This document shows, piece after piece, positions 16,174 to 27,980 of a stretch of 64,000 nt of DNA. The notes beneath the pieces are model-generated. The model was not told the DNA's origin, made no database searches, and saw only the letters and a program-made list of their open reading frames with translations. The stretch is from Castellaniella defragrans (GTDB lineage: Bacteria > Pseudomonadota > Gammaproteobacteria > Burkholderiales > Burkholderiaceae_B), in assembly GCF_014203015.1 (NCBI RefSeq), contig NZ_JACHIB010000007.1, positions 63,634-127,633 of the forward strand. Reading direction: 5' to 3'. Made by a program: the position numbers and the translations under genes. Numbering within the stretch: the first letter of the stretch is position 1; each line of letters opens with the position of its first letter.

Positions 16174-17193
16174 ATGGACAAGCAGAAAAAGATCCTGGTG
16201 ATCGGCGGCTTGGCGGCTCTGGTGCTGATCGGCGGCTGGCTGGCCGTTTCCCACGTGGCGACCAGCCGTGCCGAGGACAAGTTGTACGCCTTCCTGGACC
16301 GGTACCAACTGCGCGATGCCGTTCATTGGCAAAGCCTGTCGGCGTCACCGTTCGGGACAGCCACCTTGAAGGGAATCACGATTCGCCTCGGAGAAGGCCA
16401 GAACGCGGAGAAGGGGGCGATCGAACGCATCCACCTGTCCGATCTGGAGGACTCCGAGGATCGCAAGAGTGCCAGGGTCGAGGTGACGGGCATTGCCGGA
16501 GGCGATGGCCGCAGCCTCTTGAACCGGACGAGCCTGATCCAGGCCGCTGGCCGCGCCGATTTGCCGCCTTTTTCTCTGACGATGGATTGGCGCCTGGATC
16601 GCAAGGACGACACGGGTGCACTGCATTTCTCCCTGGAACAGCCCAAGGCGTTCGATGGGAAGTTCGATCTGGAACTGAGCCGTGTACGCGACCTGCTTCG
16701 GCTTGCTGATCGCCTGGCCCATGGGGGTGGAGACGATTTTCAGGAACTGGCTGGCGGTTTCGGATTCCTGGGCCCTTTGGGAGCGCTGGCGGTGGTCAGT
16801 CAGAAGATCCAGCAGATGGAGGTTCGTGCCGTGCGAGCCAGCATCCGGGATGAGGGCTATGGCGAGCGGTCCCGTGCGCTTGCCAAGCGGCATGACTTCG
16901 ATGCGGCGCCGGGTGAAGGCTCGGCGGATGTGCAGCGCGAGCGGTGGTTCAAGGAAAAGATCGATGCGGGCCGGGCACAGTGCAAAAAGGACCCCGAGGC
17001 CGCGTTCGGCGGAGCGCCTCTGAGCCGCGACGACTGCCTGGCCTTGCTGGATTTCGTAACGGGGGAGTCTGCCAAGCTGACCGTGAAAATGGAACCCGCG
17101 CGTCCGGTTTCCCTGGAACAGCTATTGGAGGGAGGGTCCAGCCGCGATCCTTATCGTTCTATCCGTCTACTCGAAATGCGGCTGGATAATTAA
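16174..17193 (+). CDS. Unrecognised inner-membrane-anchored protein
   Basis: 339 residues, function not recognised. One N-terminal membrane helix (about 6-28) is followed by a soluble, presumably periplasmic region. The early part (SASPFGTATLKGITIRLGEG) resembles the start of DUF945/AsmA-like membrane-anchored proteins, but I would not assign it. ATG 16174 follows GGAGAGGA; a GTG at 16156 lies within that ribosome-binding sequence and is less likely. It is 19 bp after the previous gene and ends on TTAA shared with the convergent btuF stop. With its two upstream neighbours it makes an outer-membrane lipoprotein, periplasmic protein and inner-membrane protein set. Confidence 0.78.
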   Translation: MDKQKKILVIGGLAALVLIGGWLAVSHVATSRAEDKLYAFLDRYQLRDAVHWQSLSASPFGTATLKGITIRLGEGQNAEKGAIERIHLSDLEDSEDRKSARVEVTGIAGGDGRSLLNRTSLIQAAGRADLPPFSLTMDWRLDRKDDTGALHFSLEQPKAFDGKFDLELSRVRDLLRLADRLAHGGGDDFQELAGGFGFLGPLGALAVVSQKIQQMEVRAVRASIRDEGYGERSRALAKRHDFDAAPGEGSADVQRERWFKEKIDAGRAQCKKDPEAAFGGAPLSRDDCLALLDFVTGESAKLTVKMEPARPVSLEQLLEGGSSRDPYRSIRLLEMRLDN

Positions 17194-18233
17194 TGCGCAT
17201 AGGCATCCCGCAAATCCGCACAGATCGCCTCGGCCGCGTCCACCAGGCGCGGTCCCGGCCGGTGCAACTGGTCGGGATCGACGGCATAGATGCGGTCCGC
17301 GAGGGCGGCGGGCAGGCCGTGCTGGGCCCACCAGGCGCGCCGGGCCGCCAGGGTTTCGCGGCCGTAGGGCGAGACGATCAGCACCTGCGGGTTCAGGTGC
17401 AGCACCGACTCCACGCTGACCTGCGGCGCGGCGATCGCGTGCGTGGCGTAGGGGTTGACGCCGCCGCAGCGCGCCAGCAGGTCGTTGGTCAGGGGGTCGC
17501 GGCCCAGGGTGTATAGCGGGTCGGCGCTGATCTCGATGAAGACGGTCTGCGGCGGGGGCGGCGCTGGCCGCAGGGCGCGGATGCGGCGCTCCAGGCCGCG
17601 CGCGGCGGCGTCGGCGGTGGCGCGGGTGCCCAGACGGTCGCCCAGGTCGCGGATCAGGGCCGGGATGTCGTCCAGCGATTTCGGATTGGCGTAGACCAGG
17701 GGCACGCCCAGAGGCGCCAGGCGCCGTTCCAGAGACCGCGTGCCGTCGGACGGCAGCCAGCCGACCACCAGGGTTGGGCGCAAGGTCAGGATGGTTTCCT
17801 CGCTGAACTGGATGCCGTCGCCGATGCGCGGGATGGCGCGCGCCTCGGGCGGGTAGTCGCTGCGCAGGACGGTGCCGACGATATCGGCACCGGCGCCGGC
17901 GGCGTAGACCAGCTCGGTGGCGTTGGGCGCCAGGGTGACGATGCGGGGCGGCGTGCCGTGCCGGACCGGACCGGTCGCAAGGGGCGCCGCGGCGGCAACG
18001 GGCACGGCAGCGGCCCCTGCGTAGGCGGCCCCGGCATCGGCAACTCCGGCATCGGCAGCCCCGGCATCGGCGATCCCGGCATCGACGGTCCCGGCATCCG
18101 CGGCCCCGGCCCGCGCAAGGTCCGGGCCGGCAACGGCCGCCCAGGCGGCGCACAGGCCCAGGCAGGCGGCGGCCGCCAGGCGCGGCAGGCGCCGCCGCGC
18201 TCCGGCCAAGCCGCCCGCCGTCCGCCGCCGCAT
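17190..18233 (-). CDS. btuF: Cobalamin ABC transporter substrate-binding protein
   Basis: 347 residues. A signal peptide is followed by an unusual Ala-Asp-Ala-Gly-rich low-complexity linker (about 45-80) and then the class III periplasmic binding domain (PRIVTLAPNATELVYAAGAG, VVGWLPSDGT, VYANPKSLDDIPALIRDLG, PLTNDLLARCGG). It starts 2 bp after the btuB stop, so both are in one transcript under the B12 riboswitch. The permease and ATPase (BtuC, BtuD) are not in the window. Assignment as B12-binding rather than another metal chelate rests on btuB and the riboswitch. Confidence 0.88.
   Translation of the reverse strand: MRRRTAGGLAGARRRLPRLAAAACLGLCAAWAAVAGPDLARAGAADAGTVDAGIADAGAADAGVADAGAAYAGAAAVPVAAAAPLATGPVRHGTPPRIVTLAPNATELVYAAGAGADIVGTVLRSDYPPEARAIPRIGDGIQFSEETILTLRPTLVVGWLPSDGTRSLERRLAPLGVPLVYANPKSLDDIPALIRDLGDRLGTRATADAAARGLERRIRALRPAPPPPQTVFIEISADPLYTLGRDPLTNDLLARCGGVNPYATHAIAAPQVSVESVLHLNPQVLIVSPYGRETLAARRAWWAQHGLPAALADRIYAVDPDQLHRPGPRLVDAAEAICADLRDAYAH
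18031..18105. repeat. 15-bp degenerate tandem repeat inside btuF
   Basis: Five units starting CCGGCATCGGC at 18031, 18046, 18061, 18076 and 18091, encoding the Asp-Ala-Gly-rich linker of BtuF on the minus strand. Confidence 0.85.
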
Positions 18234-18235
18234 GG

Positions 18236-20176
18236 CTACATCCGCCAGGACAGGTTCACGAACACGTTGGAGCCCGGCGTGTTGTAGCCGTCCACCCGCA
18301 CGTAGTCCTTGTCCAGCACGTTGTTCCAGCGCACCTGCACGCCCAGCGACTTGCTGAAGTCGTAGGCGGCGGTCAGGTTGACCAGGGCATAGCCGCCCAG
18401 GCGGGTGCGGTTGGCGATGTCGGCGTAGCGGTTGCCGGTGTACTGGTATTCCGCGCCCAGCCGCAGGGCCTGGATGCGGTGCTCGACGCCCAGGTGGAAG
18501 ACCTGGCGGGCGCGGTAGGGCAGCGCCGAGCCTTCGGCGGGCGTGAAGCCCTGGGCGGGCCGCGGGTCGTCGTTGCGCGGATCGAGGAAGTCGGCGCTGG
18601 CGCGCAGGGTGGTATCGCCGAAGTCGTGCTCCCCGGCCAGAGTCAGGCCGCGCAGGGTGGCCTGGGCGACGTTTTGCGGGGTCGTCCACCAGGTCACGGG
18701 GTCGGAGACGTTGACGATCAGGTCGCGCACCTTGTTCTGGTAGGCGGTCAGCCGCAGCAGGGTGCCGCCGCCCTGGTACTGGACGTGCGCCTCGATGTTG
18801 TGGGATTTTTCCGGCTTCAGGTCGGGATTCCCCTTGTAGAAGGCCGCGGGGTAGTCCTGGTACAGGTCGGCGAAGGTCGGGACGCGAAAGCCGGTGCTGC
18901 CGGCGATGCCGACCTGCCACGCCTCGCTCAGGTCCAGGTCCAGGCCCAGGCTGCCCGTGGTCTGGTTGCCGTGATCCGTGTAGTTGTCGTTGCGCACGCT
19001 GGCCTGCGTGTGCAGCCGGTCGAAGCCGCCCTTGTAGATCAGCGCCGCGCTGTTGACGTTGCGGTCCGTCCGGTCGTAGGAGAAGTCGCTGTTGACGCGT
19101 TCTTCCAGGCGTTCGGCCAGGATCGAGACGCGCTGGCCGGGCAGGACCTGCAGGTTGTTCTGCCACGACAGGGTGCGCTTCAGGCTCGAATGCACGAACG
19201 AGCCGTCGGTGGGACGGCGGTAGTCCAGGGAATCCCGCGTCCAGCCGAATCGCAGCACGCTTTCCCACCGGTCGGTGATCCGGTCCGTGCTGGTGAGGCG
19301 GTAGGCCTGCTGGCGCACGAGGTTGCGCACGTTGTCCTCGGTGGCGTAGGGGTAGTCGTCCTGCGTGCCGTCGGAATCGGCATGCAGGGTGCTGTCGTAG
19401 GCGGCCAGGCCGATGTGGTGGCCCGCGGCCCACTGGTAGCCCAGGGTGCCGGCCCAGCCGCGGCTGGCATAGCCGTCCTCGTCGGCGTAGTGTCCCCAGC
19501 TGTCGGTGGAACTGTTGTTGGCGAAATGCCGGCGCATGACGTCGAAGCCCTTGCTGCCCGCGGCGCTGGCGGAAAGGCTGTAGTCCCAGCCCGCGCTGGC
19601 GCCCGACAGTCCCAGGCTGGACTTGACCGTCTCGTAGGTGCCGTATCCCAGGTTGGCCCAGGCCGACAGCGGACGGTCCTGCGCGCCCTTTTTCGTGATG
19701 ATGTTGACCACGCCGCCGATGGCGTCCGAGCCGTACAGGCTGCTGGCGGCGCCGCGCAGGATCTCGACGCGTTCGACCAGGGCCGGGTCGATGGATTCCA
19801 GCCGGGTTCCGCCCGACAGCAGTTCCGTGGCCCGCATGCCGTCGATCAGCACGAGCGTCTGGCTGGGATTGGCGCCGCGCAGGTAGAGGCCGCTGACGGT
19901 CTGCGGCCCGCCGGTGGTCGTGAACTGCACGCCCGGGGCGCGGCCGATGATTTCGGCGAGGCCGTCGCCGCGTGCGCGGGCGAGCGTGTCCTGGCCGATG
20001 ACGGTGACGTCGCCCACCGCGTCGGCCAGCGGCTCGGGGCTGCGGCTGGCGGTGACGACGATGTCCCGCAGCGTCGGCACGGCGGCGTCGGTGGCGGTGG
20101 CGGTGGATTGGGCCGTGGCGGCCAGGGGAAGCAGACAGCAGGCGGCCGCGAGGCGGCGCGGGATGGAAGCAGACAT
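18236..20176 (-). CDS. btuB: TonB-dependent vitamin B12 receptor
   Basis: 646 residues. A signal peptide (about 1-22), a TonB-box-like LRDIVVTASRS, a plug domain (about 40-150, with RGANPSQTLVLIDGMR and LRGAASSLYGSDAIGGVVNIITKKG) and a 22-strand-type barrel to the C-terminus. Among TonB-dependent receptors, B12 specificity is supported by the cobalamin riboswitch directly upstream and btuF directly downstream. The start is preceded by an AGGG-containing leader. Confidence 0.92.
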   Translation of the reverse strand: MSASIPRRLAAACCLLPLAATAQSTATATDAAVPTLRDIVVTASRSPEPLADAVGDVTVIGQDTLARARGDGLAEIIGRAPGVQFTTTGGPQTVSGLYLRGANPSQTLVLIDGMRATELLSGGTRLESIDPALVERVEILRGAASSLYGSDAIGGVVNIITKKGAQDRPLSAWANLGYGTYETVKSSLGLSGASAGWDYSLSASAAGSKGFDVMRRHFANNSSTDSWGHYADEDGYASRGWAGTLGYQWAAGHHIGLAAYDSTLHADSDGTQDDYPYATEDNVRNLVRQQAYRLTSTDRITDRWESVLRFGWTRDSLDYRRPTDGSFVHSSLKRTLSWQNNLQVLPGQRVSILAERLEERVNSDFSYDRTDRNVNSAALIYKGGFDRLHTQASVRNDNYTDHGNQTTGSLGLDLDLSEAWQVGIAGSTGFRVPTFADLYQDYPAAFYKGNPDLKPEKSHNIEAHVQYQGGGTLLRLTAYQNKVRDLIVNVSDPVTWWTTPQNVAQATLRGLTLAGEHDFGDTTLRASADFLDPRNDDPRPAQGFTPAEGSALPYRARQVFHLGVEHRIQALRLGAEYQYTGNRYADIANRTRLGGYALVNLTAAYDFSKSLGVQVRWNNVLDKDYVRVDGYNTPGSNVFVNLSWRM

Positions 20177-20218
20177 GACGAGGCCCTGTTTGGCGCGCGT
20201 CCCCGCACGCCGGCATTG

Positions 20219-20278
20219 AAAAACGCCCGTGGGCCGCGTTCCGCCATGGAGGGCGGGATGCCGGGGCCGCGCCGGGCG
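20219..20278 (-). terminator. Possible expression platform of the B12 riboswitch
   Basis: On the minus strand CGCCCG pairs with a distal CGGGCG followed by TTTTT, enclosing an internal CCGCC/GGCGG hairpin. Fits an attenuator between the aptamer and btuB; pairing alternatives were judged by eye. Confidence 0.4.
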
Positions 20279-20282
20279 GGAT

Positions 20283-20418
20283 CAGGTATCGAAGCAGGCC
20301 GGTATCGGGCTGGCATGGAGGCATGCGCACCGTTGCGGGGGCAGCACAGCTGGGCTCGCGGGCGAGCCGTCTGTTTCCCGTTTGAATACGCCGCACGGGT
20401 GGCGCGGCGCATACCTGT
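20283..20418 (-). promoter_or_regulatory. Cobalamin riboswitch upstream of btuB
   Basis: Minus-strand conserved elements appear in the correct order: a GC-rich hairpin, GGGAAAC (about 20379-20373), the core GCTGCCCCCGCAACG (20345-20331) and the B12-box region ATGCCAGCCCGATACCGGCC (about 20316-20297). It lies about 110 nt upstream of the btuB start. The riboswitch lowers expression of B12 uptake genes when adenosylcobalamin is bound. Confidence 0.9.
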
Positions 20419-20428
20419 TTCGCCGCGA

Positions 20429-20456
20429 ACTATAGCATGCGGCTTCCGTAGGCAAG
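20429..20456 (-). promoter_or_regulatory. Probable promoter of btuB-btuF
   Basis: Minus strand -10 TATAGT (20434-20429) with TTGCCT or CTTGCC 15-16 bp upstream. The predicted start near 20422 falls just before the riboswitch. Confidence 0.5.
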
Positions 20457-20485
20457 GGCGATGACCTTGCCGGGAACGCGGTCCG

Positions 20486-20644
20486 TCAGGCGCTCGTCGC
20501 CGCCGGGCGGCGCGCGCCGGACAGGATGTCCAGGACGCGGGCGATCAGGCTCTTGCGGGGCCGGCCCGCGCGGGCGGCGAGTTCCTGCGCCAGCATGCGC
20601 TCGAAGGTTTCGTTCACGGGGTAGTTGGAAAAGGGAACCAACAT
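20486..20644 (-). CDS. Small unrecognised 52-residue protein
   Basis: ATG 20644 is preceded by AAGGAG at 6-nt spacing, the best Shine-Dalgarno in the area, which supports a real gene. The product is 52 residues, basic at the C-terminal half, with no signal peptide or membrane helix and no motif I recognise. Longer frames in this place (starting at 20701 or 20705) lack a ribosome-binding site. It ends just before the btuB promoter and diverges from the autotransporter across a palindromic region. Confidence 0.5.
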   Translation of the reverse strand: MLVPFSNYPVNETFERMLAQELAARAGRPRKSLIARVLDILSGARRPAATSA

Positions 20645-20713
20645 GCTGCGCTCCTTGCGTGTGTCTGCGTGCTTGCCTGTCTGCCTTTCGCAAGCCCGCA
20701 AGCAACTGGTGAA

Positions 20714-20736
20714 AACCCTTTATAGGGTTAACCCTA
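20714..20736. promoter_or_regulatory. Overlapping palindromes, candidate operator
   Basis: AACCCTTTATAGGGTT (20714-20729) and TAGGGTTAACCCTA (20723-20736) are inverted repeats that share one arm, giving alternating CCCT/AGGG blocks. It lies between the small gene (minus) and the autotransporter (plus) and overlaps a TATAAA-like -10 on the minus strand. Confidence 0.55.
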
Positions 20737-20814
20737 GTATAGCGAAAGAAGCGGGTCGGCGCCTGCTTTCTGGTTTATAACCTTGCGTTACACCATCATC
20801 ATTCTGTTGCGCTC

Positions 20815-23800
20815 ATGTTCCTCAAATCGCTCACCGGCCTGTTTTCCCTCACGTTGGCCGGTTTATCCTGCGCACAGGCGTACGAAGTCCACACGATCAC
20901 GACACCCGCCGGGCAGCCGGCGTTCGAGCTGCGGTACTTCGATCCGGCCGACGGGCCCTTCGTGTCCGACAACGAGGGCACCCAGGTATCGACATGGGCC
21001 TGGTCGCCGCATCTGATCCAGCAGATCAATCAGGGGGTGCGCTACTGGGCCAGCCTGATCCAGCCCCAGGGCGCCTTGGAGCCGGCCGTCATCCATATCG
21101 GCACCTATGATGCATGGGCCAATGCCTTCGGCCTGTCTATCCTGGGCGATGGCGGGCGGAACCCGAAAACCGTGCTGCAGATGCGGCTGCAGGGCCTGCC
21201 GAGCAGCCCCGCCAGCATGGAGGACGGCTCGCACGCGGCCTTCGGCCTGGGGCCGTCCGTTTACCCCACCGTCACGCATTTCAGCCAGATCCCCTTGACG
21301 GGCAAGGACGATATCGTTTCGACCGCCATTCACGAACTGGGTCATGGCTTCGGCATCATCAGCTCGATCCGGAACACCGCGGGCACGCTGACGCCGGCCT
21401 TCGGCGACGTGCTGGGCGGGTGGGCGTCCCTGATGGTGGACGACAACGGCAACCCCGCGCGGCCGGGGCAGGTCATCCTGTGCCGGGGATGCCCCAACCC
21501 CGCAGCGTCCGATGTCTTCGACGTGCGCCAGGACAAGGGCATGCTGGTGGGCCCCCATATCGATGAAGTGCTGGCCGGCGGCCTGCCCGGCGTGCCGGTG
21601 GCCATGCTGAAGCACAAGGTCGACGGGACCGTCAGTGTGGATGACAACTACATGAGCCACATCGAGCTGAAGAACAGCATGATGAGCCACCAGAGCTACC
21701 GCAACTACACCGGCTTCATGGAAGCGGAGCTGGCGGTGCTGCAGGACCTGGGCTACACCATAGACCGGCGTAATTTCTTCGGGCGCTCGATCTACGGCAG
21801 CGGCCTGGATGTCGTCAACACGCAGGGCTATTCCGCCCGCAACGCCGAGGGCACCGCGTATCTGCCGGGCAGCTACAGCACGGCGCTGCTGGGCCTGGGC
21901 CTGCACGTCTATGGCAGCGGCAACCGGATCCGCCAGGCGGCCGACCTGCTGACGGCGGGAGAGGGCGGCGCCGGCATCCGGGTCGATGGCGAAGGCAATG
22001 CGCTGACGATCGATCCGGGCGTGCGCGTGCATGCCGACGGTTCGTCGGGGCAGGGGATTATGTTCGCCTACGGCAGGAACCATACCCTGGTCCAGCGCGG
22101 CGACGTCGAAGCCCTGGGCGAGCGCGGTGTCGGCCTGCGCTTCGATTTCGGTACCAACGTTTTTACCGCGGCGTTCGAGGACCGGGGCTCGTATATCCAT
22201 GCCTCCGCCGAGGGCCCCTTGCCCCCGCTGCCGGAACTTGACGGCCCCCTGGTGACCCAGGCCGATATCTCCGGCCGGGTGGCGGGGCGAGAAGCCGCCA
22301 TTTACATGTCGGCCAATGCTTACGTGGCACGCCTGAATCTGATGCAGGGCGCGCGCATCGAAGGCGATATCGTGTCTTTGTACGATCAGCAGGACGATCT
22401 GGGCGCCCAACGCCTGACGACCGTGTCCTTCGGCCAGCGCGCCGATGTGGCGGGCCGGGCCACGGGGCAGGCGGATGCGGATTTTCGCTTTGCCTATACG
22501 GGCAATATCCTGGGCGGGAAGAACCTGACGCTGACGTTTGACGGCGGCGATACCCGCTTGAACGGCCGCAACGAGGTATATGGTGCGGAGATCCGGCCGG
22601 GCGCCCGGCTCGGCGGCAATGCCACCTACACAATGACCGGGGGCGGCGCCTTGACCAATCAGGGGACGCTCGCGCCCGGCAACTCGCTGGGCCGGATCGA
22701 CGTGATCGGCAATTATGCGCAGACGGCCAGCGGCACCTTGCAGGCCGAATTCGACGCCTCGGGCGCCTCGGACGTGCTGGCCGTCAGCGGGACGGCGACG
22801 CTGGCGGGCGGACTGGATCTGATGCCGATGGCCGGCTGGTACGCCGACGGCTGGTCCGCCACGGCGAGCCCCCTGCGGGCGGGCACCGTGGCCGGGGATT
22901 TCGACACGGTCGCGTTGTCGCCGGTTTCGCCCACCCTGCGGTTCGAGGCCGCCGGCCTGGGCGCCGGCCAGTATGACCTGAGCATGACGCGGCCGGCCGA
23001 CGCCTATGGCCGCTACGGCGCCAGCGCCAACGATCTGCGCGCAGGGCGGGCCCTGTCGCAGCTGGCTGCGTTGGGGACGCCGGCGGTGCAGCCGCTGTTC
23101 CGCGGCCTGGATTTCTCCGCTCCGGATGGTCACGAAGTCGCGCAGGCGCTGGTGCAGGTGTCGCCCGCCCCCTACAGCACGGGGCTGGCGGCGTCGCTGC
23201 GGCGTGATCGCGCGGCGGCGGATGCGGCCCTGCGCAGCCTGGCGCCGGACGGTGCTCCGGCCGGTTCGGGATGGGCCGGCCATGCCGCCCTGTTCGGCGG
23301 CACGGGCAGGCAGGATGCCCGGGGCACGCTGGTGGGCGGCCGCGAGACCCTGTATGGGGTGGTGGCGGGCAGCAGCCGGCGGCTGGAGGCGGCCCCCGAC
23401 GTCACGGTGGGCTTCAGCCTGGACCTGTCCGAGCAGAAGGTCAGCCTGCGGACTCCGTATCGGGGCGAGGCCAAGGCCACGGCCGTGGGGCTGGGCGCGC
23501 AGTGGCGCTACCGGCCCGATGCCGGGCGGGGCTGGACCGCGCAGAGCGCCGCGCGCCTGGGGGTGGAGCGCGGAACCATGGATCGCCAGGTGGCCTTTGC
23601 GGATTATTCCGCCCGCCACAAGGCGGACTGGACGGGCTACGGGGTGTCGGCCCAGGCCGAGGGCGGCTATCGGTTTGCCTTGACGGAATCGCTGTCGGCG
23701 GGGCCTTTCGTGTCGCTGGACTATGCGCGTCTGATGCGCCCCGGGGTGGATGAGTCCGGCGCCCAGGCGACGCGGCTGATGCTGGATCGCCTGCACGCCG

Positions 23801-24126
23801 ATGCCTTGCGCTCGCGCCTGGGGATCGATGCCCGTACGGCATGGGATCTGGGCGGCGAGCGGGCGGTCTCGGCCCGGCTGCAGATCAGCTGGGACCGGGA
23901 ATGGCTGGACCGGGACGTCAGCCAGACGGCGCGCTTCGACGCGCAGCCGGCCGTGTCGTTTGCCAGCGTCAACACCTGGGTGCCGCGCGACACGCTGGGA
24001 CTGCGCGCGGGTCTGGACTGGCGGCGCGGCGAGCGGGTCTCCGTGGGCCTGGAGCTGGGCGGCCAGACGGGAGGCAGTTACCGGGCCATCGACGGGCAGC
24101 TCAAGCTGCGCTGGGCGTTCCGCTAG
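20815..24126 (+). CDS. Autotransporter with metzincin-like N-terminal domain
   Basis: 1103 residues. A signal peptide (about 1-22) is followed by a putative protease domain (about 23-320) with HELGHGFG (His173, Glu174, His177, Gly180) and a later Met-turn-like NSMMSHQSYRNY. Next come a short beta-helix-type passenger (about 340-720) and a C-terminal autotransporter beta-barrel (about 820-1103, from GWAGHAALFGG to the end). In HExxHxxGxxH metzincins the third ligand should follow three residues after the glycine; here that position is Ser183. The barrel would export the passenger through the outer membrane. An AT-richer stretch with TATAAC precedes the start. Substrate unknown. Confidence 0.85.
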   Translation: MFLKSLTGLFSLTLAGLSCAQAYEVHTITTPAGQPAFELRYFDPADGPFVSDNEGTQVSTWAWSPHLIQQINQGVRYWASLIQPQGALEPAVIHIGTYDAWANAFGLSILGDGGRNPKTVLQMRLQGLPSSPASMEDGSHAAFGLGPSVYPTVTHFSQIPLTGKDDIVSTAIHELGHGFGIISSIRNTAGTLTPAFGDVLGGWASLMVDDNGNPARPGQVILCRGCPNPAASDVFDVRQDKGMLVGPHIDEVLAGGLPGVPVAMLKHKVDGTVSVDDNYMSHIELKNSMMSHQSYRNYTGFMEAELAVLQDLGYTIDRRNFFGRSIYGSGLDVVNTQGYSARNAEGTAYLPGSYSTALLGLGLHVYGSGNRIRQAADLLTAGEGGAGIRVDGEGNALTIDPGVRVHADGSSGQGIMFAYGRNHTLVQRGDVEALGERGVGLRFDFGTNVFTAAFEDRGSYIHASAEGPLPPLPELDGPLVTQADISGRVAGREAAIYMSANAYVARLNLMQGARIEGDIVSLYDQQDDLGAQRLTTVSFGQRADVAGRATGQADADFRFAYTGNILGGKNLTLTFDGGDTRLNGRNEVYGAEIRPGARLGGNATYTMTGGGALTNQGTLAPGNSLGRIDVIGNYAQTASGTLQAEFDASGASDVLAVSGTATLAGGLDLMPMAGWYADGWSATASPLRAGTVAGDFDTVALSPVSPTLRFEAAGLGAGQYDLSMTRPADAYGRYGASANDLRAGRALSQLAALGTPAVQPLFRGLDFSAPDGHEVAQALVQVSPAPYSTGLAASLRRDRAAADAALRSLAPDGAPAGSGWAGHAALFGGTGRQDARGTLVGGRETLYGVVAGSSRRLEAAPDVTVGFSLDLSEQKVSLRTPYRGEAKATAVGLGAQWRYRPDAGRGWTAQSAARLGVERGTMDRQVAFADYSARHKADWTGYGVSAQAEGGYRFALTESLSAGPFVSLDYARLMRPGVDESGAQATRLMLDRLHADALRSRLGIDARTAWDLGGERAVSARLQISWDREWLDRDVSQTARFDAQPAVSFASVNTWVPRDTLGLRAGLDWRRGERVSVGLELGGQTGGSYRAIDGQLKLRWAFR

Positions 24127-24206
24127 CGCACGTTGCCGCGCATCCGCGGCGGGGCCTGGTGTCGGCGATACAATGAAAGTTTGTCCATTGCCGCCCGGAT
24201 CCCGCC

Positions 24207-27980
<3,774 letters not shown>

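Follow-up and report, generated by a model that had tools for sequence, protein, structure and literature searches.

A probable leishmanolysin-like metzincin passenger in an autotransporter of Castellaniella defragrans

Results and Discussion

The subject of this work is an autotransporter gene at 20815-24126 on the plus strand of a 64,000-nucleotide stretch of Castellaniella defragrans DNA (assembly GCF_014203015.1, contig NZ_JACHIB010000007.1, positions 63,634 to 127,633), called here the window. We consider with good confidence that its product is a surface-anchored, active leishmanolysin-like metzincin, with a beta-helix like that of pertactin as its stalk and a barrel of the EstA/NalP type as its anchor. 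An earlier note on this DNA had described a metzincin-like domain in which the third zinc ligand was replaced by Ser183, and had taken it either for a zincin of a new sort, its third ligand being another residue, or for an inactive binding domain. Judging from conservation and alignment, an ordinary histidine, His282, most likely serves as the third ligand, and the apparently broken zinc motif thus becomes a coherent prediction. The features of the gene are as follows.

20815-24126, plus strand: whole gene, autotransporter with predicted leishmanolysin-like metzincin passenger, 1,103 amino acids (single open reading frame and its translation)
20815-20877, plus strand: putative N-terminal Sec signal peptide, residues 1-21 (hydrophobic stretch with a CAQA end preceding YE; cleavage site placed by eye)
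20878-21765, plus strand: predicted metzincin (leishmanolysin-like) catalytic domain, about residues 22-317 (domain model and match to 1lml)
21331-21354, plus strand: HExxHxxG, with His173, Glu174, His177 and Gly180, two proposed zinc ligands and the proposed general base (conservation)
21361-21363, plus strand: Ser183, earlier taken as the replaced ligand (variable across homologues)
21355-21657, plus strand: insert between HExxHxxG and the third histidine, residues 181-281, containing C223xxC226 (spacing from His177 to His282)
21658-21660, plus strand: His282, proposed third zinc ligand (conservation; aligned with the third-histidine motif of M8/NF038122-like proteins)
21682-21684, plus strand: Met290, Met-turn (conservation; fixed spacing to His282)
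21688-21690, plus strand: His292, two residues after the Met-turn methionine (Met+2), the place of the astacin-type switch tyrosine (conservation)
21769-22998, plus strand: beta-helical stalk, about residues 319-728 (full-length model; match to pertactin 1dab)
23026-23235, plus strand: helical linker or plug, about residues 738-807 (DSSP on the full-length model)
23272-24123, plus strand: outer-membrane beta-barrel, about residues 820-1103 (PF03797; matches to EstA and NalP)

Conservation of the active site

The protein has HELGH at residues 173-177, Gly180, Ser183, and NSMMSHQ at 287-293, as the earlier note had it. From the amino acid composition, 0.0015 copies of HExxHxxG are expected by chance, and the motif was present in 37 of 20,000 shuffles of the protein. 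Conservation was followed in 111 non-redundant passengers (142 sequences minus 31 duplicates). His173, Glu174, and His177 are invariant in all 111; at position 180, 109 have Gly and the other 2 have Asp. The H/E/H of the HELGH motif is thus conserved in the homologues, where its loss would, according to the note, have refuted the reading. Position 183, by contrast with the ligands, is occupied by S (47), N (23), G (15), T (12), A (12), D (1), and E (1). It varies freely, and there is therefore no conserved ligand there; Ser183, whose conservation the note had proposed to check, is not a conserved residue.

The conserved residue is found further along, in the sequence MSH282IELKNSMM290SH292. 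Every one of the 110 passengers long enough to cover this position has His282, which lies in the MSHIELKNSMMSH stretch, where the earlier note had thought that a third ligand might be found. Position 290 is Met in 109 of 110 and Leu in one, L149, which retains all of the histidine ligands. His282 precedes the Met-turn by 8 residues in every one of the 110 sequences. The spacing from His177 to His282, on the other hand, is 105 residues in the window protein and 49-147 across the family. Since His282 is constant while this length varies, the conserved histidine follows a long, length-variable insert. The domain has the HExxHxxG helix motif, the Met-turn methionine after the third ligand, and, in the predicted model, the fold of a metzincin (clan MA(M)). 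The compact motif of that clan, with a ligand His or Asp three residues past the Gly, is not found in the window protein, which has the variable Ser183 there. Leishmanolysin, a metzincin too, likewise deviates from the compact form by an insertion (PMC5572447).

These counts contain a bias. The family alignment of 72 rows (A2) consists of the window protein and 71 of 80 loci found by DNA patterns, and the patterns included SH(I/L)EL and MSHQ, so the invariance at positions 282 and 292 is partly imposed. Left out of it were L038, which has a stop in the match, and L076, L079, L080, L081, L082, L083, L089, and L090, which are partial matches. A fairer sample is given by the 39 rows found by profile or with the whole protein, in which His282 is present in 38 of 38 and residue 292 is His in 32, Tyr in 5, and Cys in 1. 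The denominators of 38 and 110, rather than 39 and 111, arise because L171 ends before the third-histidine motif.

The fold and its nearest relatives

The AlphaFold2 model of the domain, made from the 72-sequence alignment, has a predicted local distance difference test score (pLDDT) of 91.1 and a predicted template modelling score (pTM) of 0.90. The best match by VIA-align is leishmanolysin (1lml), with Z = 12.9 and a root-mean-square deviation of 4.0 over 219 residues, the highest of the 757 chains aligned; model residues 11-310 lie on chain residues 106-387. Matrixins and karilysin give Z = 8.3-9.1 over 123-143 residues. With the invariant H/E/H and the barrel, this match bears out the metzincin-like domain fused to an autotransporter barrel that the note had proposed, and a fold unrelated to zincins, which would have spoken against it, was not what the prediction gave.

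The alignment of profiles also points to leishmanolysin-like proteins. The comparison of A2 with A3, an alignment of seven M8/NF038122-like bacterial proteins, gave a probability of 98.5 with E = 3.7e-15, and 99.1 in a global run, with HExxH, the third His, N-x-LM (the Met-turn), and LxDxGY falling at matching positions. In phmmer, 1lml is matched (E = 0.0049) by L130, a bacterial M8 protein, at HExxH, the third His, ELM, and (Q/E)D(L/M)G, and the window protein has the same order of motifs: HELGHGFG, SH282 (SHIELKN), SMM290, and QDLG (LQDLGY). Counted on the L130-1lml alignment, the third His precedes the Met-turn Met by 11 residues in 1lml and 8 in the window protein, and the second His of HExxH is followed by the third His after 66 residues versus 105. 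The distance from the third His to the Gln of QDLG is 29 in 1lml and 28 in the window protein.

Several results weigh against a leishmanolysin-like assignment. With Foldseek by itself nothing reached E <= 0.001, the top matches being matrixins (E = 0.011) and aminopeptidase N, at E >= 0.01; leishmanolysin was absent from the 50 Foldseek matches listed and came first only after realignment of the candidates with VIA-align. Three of the seven members of A3 had been found through A2 itself. When A2 was compared with A5, an alignment of four pure-M8 sequences, the local match (probability 92.0) ended after the HExxH, and a forced global run gave no convincing position for the third His. The A5 profile is too thin, at four sequences, and the result cautions against over-reading membership in M8. 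The Pfam model of M8, PF01457, does not match the window protein, and it matches 6 of the 72 family members with a best E of 0.036. The protein is not filed as an M8 member because it does not reach the PF01457 threshold.

The matrixin (M10) model PF00413 weakly matches 53 of the 72 family members (best E = 0.00025). NF038122 (metallo_LGF), a model of secreted bacterial metalloproteases, matches residues 163-190 of the window protein with E = 0.0095 and 16 bits, far below its cut-off of 80 bits. The passenger goes unnamed by Pfam and NCBIfam. A PDB sequence search with the single window protein gave no match, and searches with profiles picked up matrixins, myroilysin, and further metzincins, for the most part through their HExxH helix (best E = 0.0082).

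Architecture of the protein

The barrel gives the only Pfam match in the protein, PF03797 (E = 3.5e-43, residues 825-1080), and is also matched by NCBIfam TIGR01414 (E = 1.3e-20). The protein is a type Va autotransporter by this C-terminal barrel, and the open reading frame and the motif positions within it confirm the gene that the earlier note had drawn. The full-length model (mean pLDDT 91.5, pTM 0.75) has the order zincin, beta-helix, helical linker, and barrel. The beta-helix matches pertactin (1dab) with Z = 16.5 over model residues 298-707, and the barrel model matches EstA (3kvn) with Z = 36.2 and NalP (1uyn) with Z = 33.2. The window gene and L002 differ at 62, 58, and 146 of the first, second, and third codon positions over 341 codons, showing that the gene behaves as coding DNA.

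The zincin starts a few residues past the presumed signal cleavage site, and thus there is no room for a propeptide. Any latency of the protease would have to come from elsewhere. Two of the three cysteines of the protein form C223xxC226 in the insert, and both are kept in 48 of the 72 rows of A2; the pair may form a short disulfide or hold a metal in a small site. The barrel ends in RWAFR (24112-24126), one residue beyond the usual terminal Phe. The C-terminus of L012 is WAFQ, and most of the other homologues end in F.

Proposed mechanism and alternatives

The architecture, conservation, fold match, and third-histidine alignment, all obtained by computation, suggest the following mechanism. 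The signal peptide would direct the protein to the periplasm, the C-terminal barrel would insert in the outer membrane, and the pertactin-like beta-helix would carry the N-terminal protease domain to the cell surface. There, one zinc would be bound by His173, His177, and the distant His282, and Glu174 would activate the water, with Met290 as the hydrophobic Met-turn base beneath the zinc. His292 lies at the site where the switch tyrosine is found in other metzincins and may stabilise a reaction intermediate. The extra stretch of about 100 residues between Gly180 and His282 would be an insertion into the classical HExxHxxGxxH, as in leishmanolysin. As substrates, extracellular proteins from a host or from the surroundings would be the most likely.

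Could the domain be a pseudoprotease, in which the metzincin fold on the beta-helix has been kept for adhesion or binding? Adhesins are frequent among autotransporter passengers, which fits such a role; Asp replaces the motif Gly in two copies from Desulfovibrionales, and Leu replaces the Met-turn Met in one homologue. However, the three residues of HExxH and His282 are never lost over several bacterial orders, and a mere binder would have no reason to keep the general base, Glu174, invariant. We therefore regard the inactive binding domain of the earlier note as unlikely. It is more doubtful still that His292 is the third zinc ligand, with His282 in another role. His292 varies little as well (His in 104 of 110), but six Desulfovibrionales sequences keep His282 and have Tyr or Cys at 292, and the third His of the M8/NF038122-like proteins aligns with His282, not with their Met+2 residue; His292 was rejected as the ligand on account of that clade. 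Least probable is a compact HExxHxxGxxS site with Ser183 or a neighbouring side chain as the ligand: although no other residue is as frequent at 183 as Ser (47 of 111), 62 of the passengers have N, G, T, or A there and 2 have D or E, the side chains of Gly and Ala cannot bind zinc, His282 never varies, and a leishmanolysin-type fold supplies the third His elsewhere, so that Ser183 was ruled out by its variability.

Comparison with known systems

A surface-anchored leishmanolysin-like protease would combine a known protease fold with a known secretion device, and the combination was not found in print: a literature search, covering titles and the openings of abstracts and reaching few subscription journals, found no autotransporter with a leishmanolysin-like, zincin, or metzincin passenger. 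Leishmanolysin and M8 (1lml, PF01457) give the best fold match and have the HExxHxxG, a long insert, the third His, the Met-turn, and the QDLG helix segment in common with the window protein. They differ in that the window protein lies outside PF01457, has 8 rather than 11 residues from His to Met and His rather than Pro at Met+2, and is anchored by a barrel. In leishmanolysin, an insertion of 62 amino acids that separates the HExxHxxG glycine from the final His is described as leaving the site undistorted (PMC5572447). The NF038122-like proteins L091, L093, and L094 have HExxHxxGF, the third-His motif, the Met-turn, and LxDxG in common with the window protein, which is far under the cut-off of that model; they are open frames of 361-585 amino acids. 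Matrixins and karilysin (M10) share the metzincin core, but they have the compact HExxHxxGxxH that the window protein lacks.

The beta-helix and barrel are those of pertactin and of EstA and NalP, unlike which the window passenger is a predicted metalloprotease. In those proteins the passengers are an adhesin (pertactin), a lipase (EstA), and a serine protease (NalP). The earlier note's remark that autotransporter proteases are usually of the serine type is fair, as they are known mostly as such, but AaaA of Pseudomonas aeruginosa is described as a characterised M28 metallopeptidase autotransporter (PMC3426542). AaaA (PDB 9oqa) also has a metallopeptidase passenger and the same kind of barrel (Z = 31.1, for the barrel part). 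However, it is a two-zinc M28 aminopeptidase, not a metzincin, and the match is limited to the barrel. M10 and M28 are listed among the autotransporter peptidase families in PMC5767081, and an M10-type annotation of members of the window family may therefore already be in print. If our proposal is correct, a widespread, unnamed family of autotransporters of about 1,100 amino acids consists of surface-anchored metzincin proteases.

The histidine at Met+2

What remains novel about the family is the conserved His292. Residue 292 is His in 104, Tyr in 5, and Cys in 1 of the 110 passengers, and in the M8/NF038122-like relatives Met+2 is P, G, or S. The sequences with Tyr or Cys are all from Desulfovibrionales and form one clade with a support of 1.0 in a tree made without the motif columns 281-293; the three members that were checked are also autotransporters (PF03797). 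This divergent clade (L165, L166, L167, L168, L169, and L172) has Ala in place of Glu284, and L165 and L167 have Asp in place of the motif Gly.

In astacins, the Tyr at Met+2 is reported as an additional zinc ligand that swings out and stabilises the intermediate (PMC9848320). A switch residue is reported also for pappalysins, snapalysins, serralysins, and others (PMC12237041), and archaemetzincin is described with Phe at the equivalent place (PMC3427221). The exchange of His and Tyr at Met+2 is what would be expected if His292 acted in the position of the switch tyrosine. As a tentative idea, the family may represent a separate metzincin lineage, with the almost invariant His292 standing in for the switch tyrosine of astacins and pappalysins as a swing-out fourth protein ligand or as an oxyanion stabiliser (a "histidine switch"). 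The Desulfovibrionales sister clade with Tyr at Met+2 is a natural comparison for this, and the exchange would allow the replaceability of the metzincin tyrosine switch to be tested directly.

Distribution

With residues 22-362 as the query, matches were found in 10 of 61 genomes, including the window's own. The scan of species genomes by DNA patterns gave 108 loci, of which 80 were kept, in genera that include Castellaniella, Pollutimonas, Advenella, Alcaligenes, Achromobacter, Pandoraea, Enterobacter, Citrobacter, Serratia, Xenorhabdus, Pseudomonas, Brucella, Desulfovibrio, and Mailhella. With profiles as queries, 33 of 268 genomes in the family of the window matched, as did 13 of 246 in the family of an Enterobacter genome and 19 of 247 in the order of a Desulfovibrio genome; of the matches in the window's family, those with a retrieved locus were analysed further. 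A class-wide profile search matched 14 of 369 genomes, and all but the window's own were weak (E = 1.5e-10 or worse). Homologues thus occur in Burkholderiales, Enterobacterales, Rhizobiales, and Desulfovibrionales. Plasmid copies (16 records) come from Salmonella, Erwinia, Serratia, Raoultella, Pandoraea, Bradyrhizobium, and Selenomonas, and where an annotation is listed it is "autotransporter ..." or "hypothetical protein". Several genomes of one genus (G480, G483, G484, G487, and G488) have three or four copies of the family.

The zincin, beta-helix, and barrel lie in one frame in 73 of the 80 homologous open reading frames. As for the other seven, L020, L038, L062, and L089 are short or interrupted, L068 and L070 are at a contig end, and L085 has no match to the barrel model. 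The open frames of L020 and L038 are interrupted, at 672 and 75 amino acids; these copies may be decaying or may carry sequencing errors.

Gene neighbourhood

In the window, B12-related genes flank the autotransporter gene (17190-27980): a btuF-like and a btuB-like gene, both on the minus strand, and a metH-like gene downstream, all named by eye from the translations. A cobalamin riboswitch was missed by the whole-window scan at the gathering threshold and found in a permissive short scan:

20433-20280, minus strand: cobalamin riboswitch RF00174, 46.3 bits (gathering threshold 31.5), before the btuB-like gene at 18236-20176 (minus strand)

Regulation of the autotransporter gene by this riboswitch was considered and rejected, since it is on the other strand and in front of btuB. 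Around eight homologues in other genera (16 of 32 listed open reading frames scanned), the nearest neighbours scanned are unrelated to btuF, btuB, and metH and to each other, and no functional partner is therefore proposed. The gene order with btuF/btuB and metH flanks is the same in L011, a locus from the window's genus.

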